From assembly GCA_028718945.1 (NCBI GenBank), contig JAQUKT010000007.1:1-40971 (forward strand): a stretch of DNA of 40,971 nt. The letters are read 5' to 3'. Source of the stretch: Actinomycetota bacterium (GTDB taxonomy: Bacteria > Actinomycetota > Geothermincolia > Fen-727 > JAQUKT01). Below the pieces are notes generated by a model, which searched no databases, was not told the origin of the DNA, and saw only the letters and a program-made list of their open reading frames with translations. Position 1 is the stretch's first letter; the number at the start of each line of letters is the position of its first letter. The position numbers and the translations under genes are program-made. This document shows positions 4,249 to 35,596 of this stretch, in pieces.

Positions 4249-5468
4249 CTCACTACTTCAATACCTTGATAACTCTGCCAGCTCCCACTGTCCTTCCACC
4301 CTCACGGATGGCGAAACGAAGACCTTCTTCCATTGCAATGGGAGTTATCAGCTCAACCTCCATCTCCGTGTTATCTCCCGGCATCACCATTTCTATCCCT
4401 TCAGGGAGAGTGACCATTCCGGTCACATCTGTTGTTCTGAAATAGAACTGGGGTCGGTAACCGGAGAAGAAGGGGGTATGCCTTCCACCCTCCTCCTTGG
4501 ATAGCACATAGACCTGTCCACGAAAGCGGGTGTGGGGAGTTATGCTGCCGGGCTGAGCAAGAACCATCCCTCTCTCAATCTCATCCCTTCCTATGCCACG
4601 CAGAAGAACTCCTATGTTGTCTCCAGCCTGACCCTCGTCAAGGATTTTCCTGAACATCTCGACACCAGTGCAGACTGTCTTTCTGGTCTCCTTTATTCCA
4701 ACTATCTCCACCTCGTCCCCAACGTGTATCTTCCCCTGCTCGACTCTTCCGGTGCCAACCGTTCCCCTCCCGGTTATGGAGAACACATCCTCCACGGGCA
4801 TCAGGAATGGCTTGTCAATATCACGTACCGGGGTCGGGATGTAGCTATCGACCGCATCCATCAAATCAAGAATTGGCTTGCACCACTGGCACTCCTCTTT
4901 GGCACAGGAGCACTCAAGGGCCTTGGTGGCACTGCCCATTATCACCGGTATCTCATCCCCGGGGAACTCGTACTCGCTCAAGAGTTCGCGCACCTCCAGC
5001 TCAACCAGTTCAAGGAGTTCAGGATCATCCACCAGGTCTGTTTTGTTCAGGAAGACGACTATGGAGGGAACCTCTACCTGGCGGGCAAGCAGAATGTGCT
5101 CTCTTGTCTGAGGCATCGGTCCATCAGCAGCGGAGACCACCAGGATTGCGCCATCCATCTGGGCAGCCCCGGTAATCATGTTTTTTATGTAGTCGGCATG
5201 ACCGGGGCAGTCAACATGAGCGTAATGACGATTGGCAGTTTCATATTCCACATGGGCTATGGCAATGGTTATTCCTCTTTCCTTCTCCTCGGGAGCATTG
5301 TCTATGGACTCGAATGTTCTCACCTCAACGGGAAGACCGCCCTGATGCAGCACCTTCGTTATGGCAGCAGTGAGCATTGTCTTTCCGTGGTCAACATGCC
5401 CTATCGTTCCCACATTAATATGAGGTTTTGTTCTTTCGAACTTCTCTTTTGCCATGATTCCCTCCTTA
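4249..5468 (-). repeat. tuf repeat, copy 1 (direct repeat with 19575-20794)
   Basis: About 1220 bp appears identical between the two tuf loci, offset by 15326 bases. Identity starts four bases beyond the stop codon and ends just after the shared Shine-Dalgarno TAAGGAGG; flanking bases differ at once on both sides. Translations of three reading frames over this stretch match between copies, so silent positions are also conserved. This is the pattern expected from gene conversion. Confidence 0.93.
4253..5455 (-). CDS. tuf: Elongation factor Tu, copy 1
   Basis: GTPase that delivers aminoacyl-tRNA to the ribosomal A site. The 400 residues show all G motifs: GHVDHGKT (19-26), DCPGH (82-86), NKTD (137-140) and GSATKAL (174-180). 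The loop after G5 carries four cysteines, C182, C184, C189 and C192 ([12 protein letters not shown]), a possible metal-binding cluster. The ATG at 5455 is preceded by TAAGGAGG. It lies 14 nt downstream of fusA in the str group. The protein is identical to that encoded at 19579-20781, and the DNA appears identical from 4249 to 5468. Confidence 0.99.
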
Positions 5469-19574: not shown

Positions 19575-20794
19575 CTCACTACTTCAATACCTTGATAACT
19601 CTGCCAGCTCCCACTGTCCTTCCACCCTCACGGATGGCGAAACGAAGACCTTCTTCCATTGCAATGGGAGTTATCAGCTCAACCTCCATCTCCGTGTTAT
19701 CTCCCGGCATCACCATTTCTATCCCTTCAGGGAGAGTGACCATTCCGGTCACATCTGTTGTTCTGAAATAGAACTGGGGTCGGTAACCGGAGAAGAAGGG
19801 GGTATGCCTTCCACCCTCCTCCTTGGATAGCACATAGACCTGTCCACGAAAGCGGGTGTGGGGAGTTATGCTGCCGGGCTGAGCAAGAACCATCCCTCTC
19901 TCAATCTCATCCCTTCCTATGCCACGCAGAAGAACTCCTATGTTGTCTCCAGCCTGACCCTCGTCAAGGATTTTCCTGAACATCTCGACACCAGTGCAGA
20001 CTGTCTTTCTGGTCTCCTTTATTCCAACTATCTCCACCTCGTCCCCAACGTGTATCTTCCCCTGCTCGACTCTTCCGGTGCCAACCGTTCCCCTCCCGGT
20101 TATGGAGAACACATCCTCCACGGGCATCAGGAATGGCTTGTCAATATCACGTACCGGGGTCGGGATGTAGCTATCGACCGCATCCATCAAATCAAGAATT
20201 GGCTTGCACCACTGGCACTCCTCTTTGGCACAGGAGCACTCAAGGGCCTTGGTGGCACTGCCCATTATCACCGGTATCTCATCCCCGGGGAACTCGTACT
20301 CGCTCAAGAGTTCGCGCACCTCCAGCTCAACCAGTTCAAGGAGTTCAGGATCATCCACCAGGTCTGTTTTGTTCAGGAAGACGACTATGGAGGGAACCTC
20401 TACCTGGCGGGCAAGCAGAATGTGCTCTCTTGTCTGAGGCATCGGTCCATCAGCAGCGGAGACCACCAGGATTGCGCCATCCATCTGGGCAGCCCCGGTA
20501 ATCATGTTTTTTATGTAGTCGGCATGACCGGGGCAGTCAACATGAGCGTAATGACGATTGGCAGTTTCATATTCCACATGGGCTATGGCAATGGTTATTC
20601 CTCTTTCCTTCTCCTCGGGAGCATTGTCTATGGACTCGAATGTTCTCACCTCAACGGGAAGACCGCCCTGATGCAGCACCTTCGTTATGGCAGCAGTGAG
20701 CATTGTCTTTCCGTGGTCAACATGCCCTATCGTTCCCACATTAATATGAGGTTTTGTTCTTTCGAACTTCTCTTTTGCCATGATTCCCTCCTTA
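19575..20794 (-). repeat. tuf repeat, copy 2 (direct repeat with 4249-5468)
   Basis: Second copy of the approximately 1220-bp tuf repeat. The left border is within four bases of the stop codon and the right border is just past the ribosome binding site; beyond these the sequence is unrelated to copy 1 (rpmG on one side, a short spacer and tRNA-Met on the other). Confidence 0.93.
19579..20781 (-). CDS. tuf: Elongation factor Tu, copy 2
   Basis: Second EF-Tu gene, encoding the same 400 residues as the copy at 4253-5455, including the four-cysteine loop at 182-192. Its place after a tRNA cluster and before rpmG and secE corresponds to the tufB locus of E. coli (tRNA genes followed by tufB). ATG 20781 has TAAGGAGG upstream. 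It is probably transcribed with the three upstream tRNA genes from the promoter at 21221-21249, since no clear promoter is seen in the short gap to tRNA-Met. Confidence 0.99.
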
Positions 20795-34290: not shown

Positions 34291-34473
34291 TCTTCAATCC
34301 TTTGGCAAACACTACATGACATCAAACAAGCTGTTGGTCTTCTCGTTTCATATTACCAGAACAATACGACAGATAAACACGATGTCACGAATCAATCGAA
34401 TAATCGAATAAGCGAAGATTGGCAAAAACTTTCTGCAGCAGGAAACGCTCAGTAGGTTACTTTTTCATAGATG

Positions 34474-34479
34474 TATAAT
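34474..34479 (+). promoter_or_regulatory. Perfect -10 box just upstream of the 50-residue Cys protein
   Basis: TATAAT at 34474-34479 ends six bases before the ATG at 34486, so a transcript starting seven bases downstream would begin at the A of the start codon. No convincing -35 box lies at 16-18 nt; a TG pair sits directly before the hexamer, one base out of register for an extended -10. Confidence 0.5.
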
Positions 34480-34485
34480 CGTGAC

Positions 34486-34638
34486 ATGAAATTTTTGAGA
34501 ACCATTTTGCTCAGATTCAGAAAATTCATTGGAAACCCGAAGTTTTTGTGCGACTCATGCGCATACGATTATGATTCCGCGTGCCGAAATCCCGAGCGCC
34601 CGAATGCCATCAACTGCCGTGATTATCGCAAGAGATGA
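34486..34638 (+). CDS. Small Cys-rich protein (50 residues), function unknown
   Basis: A short frame starting MKFLRTILLRFRKFIGNP, with a basic, partly hydrophobic N-terminal helix, followed by CDSCAYDYDSACRNPERPNA and ending NCRDYRKR. Four cysteines (C22, C25, C33 and C43) in a CxxC-x7-C-x9-C pattern suggest a small metal-binding knuckle. I recall similar short proteins with a C-x-RPERPNA-x-x-C-x-DY ending in genomes of this type, but know no function. There is no Shine-Dalgarno sequence; the -10 box position suggests leaderless translation. It converges with the decayed radical SAM gene. Confidence 0.65.
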   Translation: MKFLRTILLRFRKFIGNPKFLCDSCAYDYDSACRNPERPNAINCRDYRKR

Positions 34639-34643
34639 GGGAT

Positions 34644-35009
34644 TCAAAGGCACCTTATGGCCCTTGGTCTCAAGAAAGGATTATCTGGTTCAGAAAGAAC
34701 CGTTCCATAAACTGAAATTCTCCCAATCTCGGGGAAAGCCTGGCGAACGCGGTCAAGAACGCTTACAAGGTCATCTGTTCGCATTGCAATGGTGTTTCCA
34801 TCAGCAAGAAAAACAGAGGATGGATAAGGCCATATCGAGCGAGCCATCTCAATATCCTCTTCTATTTCCGAAATAGAGCGGACGCGATATTTTTTCGCCT
34901 TGTACATGCCACAAAAAGTGCATCTGTTGTGCGGGCGCCCGATCGTTGCCTGGATTATCAGGCTCTCAGCCTCGCAGGGAGGTCTGAAAGCCGGTTCCTC
35001 GTACCTCAA
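34644..35009 (-). pseudogene. Truncated, mutated radical SAM protein
   Basis: The first ~100 residues of a radical SAM protein of the kind with a GCxHNxCTFCGMY motif (normally about 280-300 residues) are followed by unrelated sequence and a stop at 121. In addition the first cluster cysteine is replaced: the codon is CGC (R25) in TIGRPHNRCTFCGMY where a Cys codon TGC is expected, one transition away. Loss of a cluster ligand plus loss of two thirds of the barrel makes an inactive remnant likely. The TTG start overlaps the stop of the Nudix gene as TTGA, so it was once in an operon with it. Confidence 0.8.
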
Positions 35010-35596
35010 ATTCCCTCTCCCTTTGATCCCGCTTCAATCTCCTTCAATGCAAGGTCCGTCAATGCAACCCTGTAAGCAAAAAGCGCAACGCCTGTTTTCA
35101 AAAGCGTATCCCTTATCTTCCCTTTCAAGTCTTCGATTTTCACCCACCTTGCCTCAGCAATCTCCTCGGTATCATGCGGACAAATAGAACCGCCTACTTC
35201 GCGAGCCTCGAATATGTGAGTCGTCCATTTGATGATACGACCATTATTTGTGAAAGTTGCGTTTATTCTTGCAAGATAACGCGTCAATTCAACATCAAGA
35301 CCAGTCTCCTCCTTGGCCTCCCGAATCGCTCCTTGTTCGAGGCTCTCACCAGGATATGCGGCACCGCTTGGCGCCCTGTACGCGCCAGGTGGGAAAAATG
35401 GCTTCTTGATCGCGGCGATGGTTTCGTCATCGTCCTTTTTCCTTATGAAAAAAGTAACGTCGTGAGCTCTTCCCTTTGCCATGCTGCTTTTTACCATATC
35501 GAACTCGCCCGTCTCGAGCTCATAGGTCATTTCAGTTACAAACGGCTCCCCCAACTTCTTTTCGAGTTGCTCGACATCAGATATTTTCGTGTACAT
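35006..35596 (-). CDS. Nudix hydrolase
   Basis: Hydrolyses a nucleoside diphosphate linked to another moiety; the substrate is unknown. The 196 residues contain a full Nudix box GAAYPGESLEQGAIREAKEETGL around 77-99, with the catalytic Glu residues of REAKEE present. The N-terminal ~75 residues form an extra region beginning MYTKISDVEQLEKKLGEPFV and FFPPGAYRAPSGA leads into the box. It is followed, with overlap, by the radical SAM remnant. ATG 35596 has no close ribosome binding site. Confidence 0.88.
   Translation of the reverse strand: MYTKISDVEQLEKKLGEPFVTEMTYELETGEFDMVKSSMAKGRAHDVTFFIRKKDDDETIAAIKKPFFPPGAYRAPSGAAYPGESLEQGAIREAKEETGLDVELTRYLARINATFTNNGRIIKWTTHIFEAREVGGSICPHDTEEIAEARWVKIEDLKGKIRDTLLKTGVALFAYRVALTDLALKEIEAGSKGEGI

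Follow-up and report, generated by a model that had tools for sequence, protein, structure and literature searches.

A 50-residue open reading frame in the window (the whole 40,971-nucleotide stretch of DNA analysed here) is a real gene, and not a chance frame. Its distribution is that of a single-copy core gene of the class to which the genome belongs, and comparison of the orthologues supports its transcription as a leaderless mRNA from a -10 box placed immediately before the start codon. The encoded protein carries four invariant cysteines and is most likely a single-site zinc (or Fe-S) microprotein. Our preferred explanation, to which we give an even chance of being correct, is that of a single-domain zinc microprotein of 50 residues, held at the membrane and made from a leaderless mRNA.

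The organisation of the locus is given in Table 1. The initial annotation had drawn attention to a TATAAT six bases before an ATG that lacked a Shine-Dalgarno sequence, and both the coordinates and this description are correct by sequence. The sequence upstream of the ATG at 34486 was read and contains no Shine-Dalgarno-like string. Nor does the TATAAT have a -35 partner, the sigma-70 consensus scan of the region returning a single match that lies elsewhere and on the opposite strand. An alternative in-frame ATG at 34471 would extend the product to 55 residues. The orthologues point to 34486 as the true start instead, because seven of them have a TAA or TAG exactly at the position of the TATAAT hexamer. 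The A at 34486 is the predicted transcription start. The 50-residue product, MKFLRTILLRFRKFIGNPKFLCDSCAYDYDSACRNPERPNAINCRDYRKR, contains 4 Lys and 8 Arg versus 4 Asp and 1 Glu, and has a net charge of +7.

Table 1. Features of the leaderless candidate gene and its product (window coordinates).
Feature	Position	Strand	Basis
-10 promoter box TATAAT, at -12 to -7 relative to the start codon	34474..34479	+	sequence
Six-base spacer CGTGAC	34480..34485	+	sequence; spacing conserved in class orthologues
Coding sequence of the 50-residue protein, ATG 34486-34488 to TGA 34636-34638	34486..34638	+	conservation, purifying selection, in-frame stops in relatives
Basic N-terminal segment (residues 1-21; helix predicted at 2-15; net charge +6)	34486..34548	+	AlphaFold2, charge, hydrophobic moment
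Four-cysteine domain, residues 22-47, with C22, C25, C33, C44, R38, P39, N40 and Y47	34549..34626	+	exact Cys spacing in 81/81; invariant alignment columns

A match to the protein was found in 30 of the 31 genomes of the class, one per genome, and the only class genome without a match (G003) is rated 99% complete. When the phylum was sampled, 37 of 396 genomes matched. These consist of the 30 genomes of the class, six of a second family, whose start is the variant LCPSC (seen in the four that were read), and a single weak match (E 4e-4). Matches also occur in samples of the phyla of Heliobacterium chlorum (Bacillota; 5 of 398 genomes), of an Armatimonadetes MAG (Armatimonadota; 22 of 201) and of a Planctomycetota MAG (23 of 199). 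The genome of H. chlorum contains two matches. No homologues were found in plasmids, phages or viral contigs, using either the window protein or an Armatimonadota member as query. Comparison of 14 close orthologue pairs gave dN values of 0.04-0.17, with dS values of 0.29-1.78 in 11 pairs and saturated in the remaining three; judged by these rates, the open reading frame is under purifying selection. The existence of the cysteine-rich gene, as first proposed, is thus borne out by its presence throughout nearly all of the class, by selection on its sequence and by relatives in other phyla. No Pfam, NCBIfam or PHROG model matched the window protein at E values up to 1, no PDB family fits either, and a literature search that covered mostly papers outside subscription found nothing relevant on the family or its sequence motifs. 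The gene represents a single-copy core protein of a poorly known class, which has relatives in three or more other phyla and is covered by no family model searched.

The initial annotation had called for a search for homologues with conserved cysteine spacing. This was run, and the cysteines are preserved in the exact spacing C-x2-C-x7-C-x10-C in all 81 distinct domain sequences (those above 20 bits among the loci up to L171, leaving out a few listed matches without a locus). Nearly all 81 have an acidic residue (D/E) at the second and Y/F at the third place after the last cysteine, while R17, P18, N19, A20 and Y26 of the domain core are 89-100% conserved. In an alignment of 36 members, M1, C22, D23, C25, D28, C33, R38, P39, N40, C44 and Y47 are invariant. 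Neither this alignment nor the 81 domain sequences contain a conserved histidine that might serve as a ligand. Four invariant cysteines with no conserved histidine ligand are also what would be expected if the site held an iron-sulfur cluster or acted as redox thiols, the protein then sensing redox instead of having a structural zinc. We consider this unlikely, given that the very regular spacing and heavily conserved surroundings suit a structural zinc site equally well and that no conserved redox partner is found nearby.

A relationship to the PHD finger was also considered. The PHD finger model (PF00628) gave weak matches in six of the 36 members (best E 3.4e-5) and none in the window protein, and alignments to PHD-containing PDB chains span only ~20-25 residues, at E 0.13 or worse, along the stretch LLCDxC...Y/H..C. 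PHD fingers use a set of eight ligands, Cys4-His-Cys3. Identity as a PHD finger is ruled out by the presence of only four cysteines in the whole protein versus these eight ligands, and the likeness is limited to the middle of the motif.

To compare the promoter regions, the 30 class orthologues were aligned by their shared start codon, which is ATG in 29 and GTG in L024. A TANNNT hexamer is found at a spacer of six bases in 19 orthologues and of seven bases in four, giving 23 of 30 in total, while any other spacer from 0 to 29 has the hexamer in at most two of the 30. The background frequency in the same sequences is 9 in 1140 (0.8%). Binomial values for such box counts assume an independence that is absent among related sequences; with each taxon counted once, a strict box at spacer 6-7 is present in 14 of 19 genera and six of seven families. 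The information content of positions -12 to -7 is 0.3-1.15 bits each and nowhere exceeds 0.38 bits between -45 and -13, and a weak TG at -15/-14 of the orthologues hints at an extended -10 element. In seven of the 19 orthologues with spacer 6, the hexamer is itself an in-frame TAA or TAG. Hence coding does not account for its conservation, and a start codon further upstream is impossible in those seven.

Seven of the 30 orthologues, from five of the 19 genera, do not have a strict box at spacer 6-7. Two of these five genera (g9 and g5) have near-boxes at spacer 6, namely AATAAT in L004 and GATAAT in L006, and a third (L003 and L005) has TATAAT at spacer 10. The genus of L014 and L024 has Shine-Dalgarno-like purine runs, and the region upstream of L008 contains no clear signal. 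In total, Shine-Dalgarno-like strings occur in three of the 30 class orthologues, that of L012 (GGTGA) directly preceding its -10 box. The seven exceptions, and the purine runs of L014 and L024 in particular, are what might be expected of an ordinary leadered gene that is transcribed from far upstream, with TATAAT as a chance A+T-rich hexamer. A box in 23 of 30 orthologues versus a background of 0.8%, a sharp peak at one spacing and the occurrence of the box as a stop codon in seven orthologues, where it is not kept for coding, make this highly improbable. Leaderless transcription of the 50-residue gene is thus supported by comparison. Of the earlier proposal that the mRNA begins at the initiation codon, the placement of the box is upheld by its retention across the class orthologues, the start itself being predicted from comparison. 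Among the relatives outside the class, TANNNT lies 5-8 bases from some candidate start in only two of 47, and the box-to-ATG arrangement thus belongs to this class.

The arrangement resembles those described elsewhere. The TA-led genes of Actinobacteria and Deinococcus-Thermus have TANNNT ~10 bp before the start codon and are read as leaderless (PMC3160421), and a -10 motif is located 6-7 bp before the open reading frame in Deinococcus radiodurans (PMC12340547). Two features of a TA-led gene are found here, the box 6-7 bp before the start and the lack of a Shine-Dalgarno sequence at the window gene; the third, a transcript that begins with the start codon itself, is predicted. The same sources describe leaderless genes in Actinobacteria and Deinococcus-Thermus as genome-wide, at ~1/5 to 1/3 of genes (PMC3160421, PMC12340547), with Zheng et al. 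placing more than one fifth of Actinobacteria genes in this category (PMC3160421); in contrast, no excess is seen here. A census of 441 kb of this genome found a box at spacer 6/7 in 20 of 321 open reading frames, the control spacers averaging 20.8. The census covers candidate starts of open reading frames of at least 150 residues, with crude calls of both frames and starts, and earlier versions agree with the final one. The premise of the initial annotation that leaderless genes are common thus fails as applied to this genome, which renders the 50-residue gene more unusual, not less.

The same census applied to four class relatives gave a box excess of 0.7%, 0.7%, 1.9% and 6.0% on 219, 204, 73 and 51 open reading frames, respectively. 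For the D. radiodurans plasmid MP1, used as a control (150 of 177 kb), a box was found in nine of 101 open reading frames compared to a mean of 2.1, an excess of 6.8%. One pair of control spacers reached eight in this control, and the census is hence validated only roughly. Two further genomes of the phylum, meant as positive controls, gave 3 versus 0.9 (G052) and 3 versus 2.8 (G041), corresponding to an excess of 1.7% and 0.2%. Leaderless genes look rare in this genome on these crudely called starts, and leaderlessness looks specific to the 50-residue gene and to the orthologues of one neighbour, and not a feature of the genome.

This neighbour is the NUDIX gene, which is the only one among 19 neighbouring gene families tested with a -10 box signature. 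The set examined comprises the window gene (35006-35596, minus strand) and those of L039, L041-L045, L048, L049, L053 and L056. A box is located at spacer 6 in seven of these 11 members, and in eight a box lies 5-8 bases from a candidate start. The window copy itself has no box, and has AAGGAG upstream. Comparison supports the NUDIX gene as a putative second leaderless gene.

How the small protein might be held at the membrane was considered from its N-terminal segment and from its relatives. AlphaFold2, run on an alignment of eight sequences (the window protein and related loci), gave a mean pLDDT of 56.7 and a pTM of 0.26, with a helix at residues 2-15 and a mean pLDDT of 71 over residues 1-10. 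The basic helix noted from the DNA alone stands as regards the basic character of the segment (net +6), the helix itself being predicted at low to moderate confidence only. In only three of 30 orthologues is the hydrophobic moment of this segment higher than in shuffled versions of it (p<0.05), and hence a membrane-surface helix is not established. Class members have a charge of +3 to +8 over the 22 residues that precede the first cysteine, and no transmembrane segment is predicted in 19 class loci. Among the 47 relatives from outside the class, a predicted transmembrane segment is joined to the four-cysteine domain in ten (on the N-terminal side in seven, on the C-terminal side in three) and is absent in 37. 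In our reading, the putative metal domain would have been tied to the membrane independently in several lineages, with a basic surface helix serving this role in the class. In L150, L151 and L159, the four-cysteine domain is N-terminal and the predicted transmembrane segment C-terminal, the reverse of the usual order.

Two described proteins can be compared at this point. In the LITAF domain, a membrane helix sits between the two cysteine halves; unlike this, the helix or transmembrane segment is here located outside the four-cysteine domain, and no sequence relation was found or is claimed. The likeness lies in a zinc site of cysteines that is linked to a membrane-associated segment (PMC5142333). 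HVO_0758 from Haloferax volcanii (56 residues) is alike in its size, its one four-cysteine site and a positive N-terminal helix before the core (PMC10716476). It is unlike the present family in having two C(P)XCG motifs, compared to one CxxC and two single cysteines in 81 of 81 sequences here, and a PDB search with the family profile, carried to E 10, returned no HVO_0758 structure. The positive helix on a single zinc core of this haloarchaeal protein (PMC10716476), together with a net charge of +7 in only 50 residues, would be in keeping with a basic zinc microprotein that is soluble and attaches to RNA or the ribosome in the manner of small ribosomal zinc proteins, its N-terminal helix contacting nucleic acid. 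A ribosomal role is difficult to reconcile with the transmembrane-linked domain of ten of the 47 relatives outside the class, and we regard such a role as somewhat unlikely.

In the preferred model of a membrane-held zinc microprotein, RNA polymerase would recognise the stand-alone -10 box and start at the A of the ATG, and the ribosome would initiate on the resulting leaderless mRNA. The metal bound by the four cysteines, a single ion, would most likely be zinc. The basic N-terminal helix would most likely lie on the inner membrane face, its place presumably being taken by the transmembrane segment in some relatives. Furthermore, the compact CDxC-xDY-C-RPNA-C-DY surface probably serves as an adaptor or as the docking site of a partner protein, which is a more speculative element of the model. 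A further step, which we hold to be decidedly unlikely, is that the membrane-held metal microprotein, made leaderless by a class whose genome otherwise shows little sign of it, stays on as a metal or redox sensor. If true, the fixed -10 spacing would permit synthesis of the protein when Shine-Dalgarno initiation fails, as under stress or with antibiotics against leadered initiation. The gene also constitutes a natural test of leaderless expression: 14 of the 19 genera retain its -10-to-ATG spacing, in genomes that lack a clear leaderless signal overall. In other phyla, the starts of its relatives are arranged differently, making the question of why a gene is kept leaderless directly testable.

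The gene is flanked in the window by a divergent HAD hydrolase gene upstream, and by a convergent radical SAM gene and the NUDIX gene downstream. These neighbours are common to class loci (HAD in 10, radical SAM in 13 and NUDIX in 11 of 20, window included). Other phyla have different neighbours, for example ribulose-phosphate epimerase in eight Armatimonadota loci, and no neighbour common across phyla was found that might hint at a pathway. This difference argues against a fixed operon partner. In four Armatimonadota loci (L133, L135, L136 and L145), a conserved gene is located on the same strand 32-75 bases upstream of the four-cysteine gene; the one scanned, that of L133, contains a Peptidase_M78 / IrrE N-terminal-like domain (E 8.2e-7).

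The gene orientation also bears on whether the frame acts in cis, as a cysteine-rich uORF attenuating a downstream gene. Such a role has been proposed for leaderless mycobacterial uORFs, which the 50-residue gene resembles in being short, cysteine-containing and leaderless (Shell et al. 2015, PMC4633059). The next gene is convergent, on the opposite strand and six bases after the stop codon, and a convergent radical SAM gene is found at most 420 bases downstream in 10 of the 19 other class loci. Furthermore, conservation of the protein sequence itself extends across phyla. Orientation and sequence conservation thus largely refute a uORF role, which we find barely credible. Assignment to the mycobacterial uORF type was rejected, as the next gene is convergent and not a downstream target in the same direction.

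Two minor observations were made on other genes of the window. The radical SAM gene (34644-35009, minus strand) encodes 121 residues versus mostly ~290 in class relatives. Residues 1-102 and roughly the final 18 are retained, the part between them is absent without a change of frame, and the first cysteine of its cluster motif is replaced by arginine (GRPHNRC versus GCPHNRC). The gene appears decayed, although an assembly error is possible. The two elongation factor Tu genes (4253-5455 and 19579-20781, minus strand) are identical in all 1203 bases, an identity that stops within 4 and 13 bases of the gene ends and that may reflect either gene conversion or an assembly effect.
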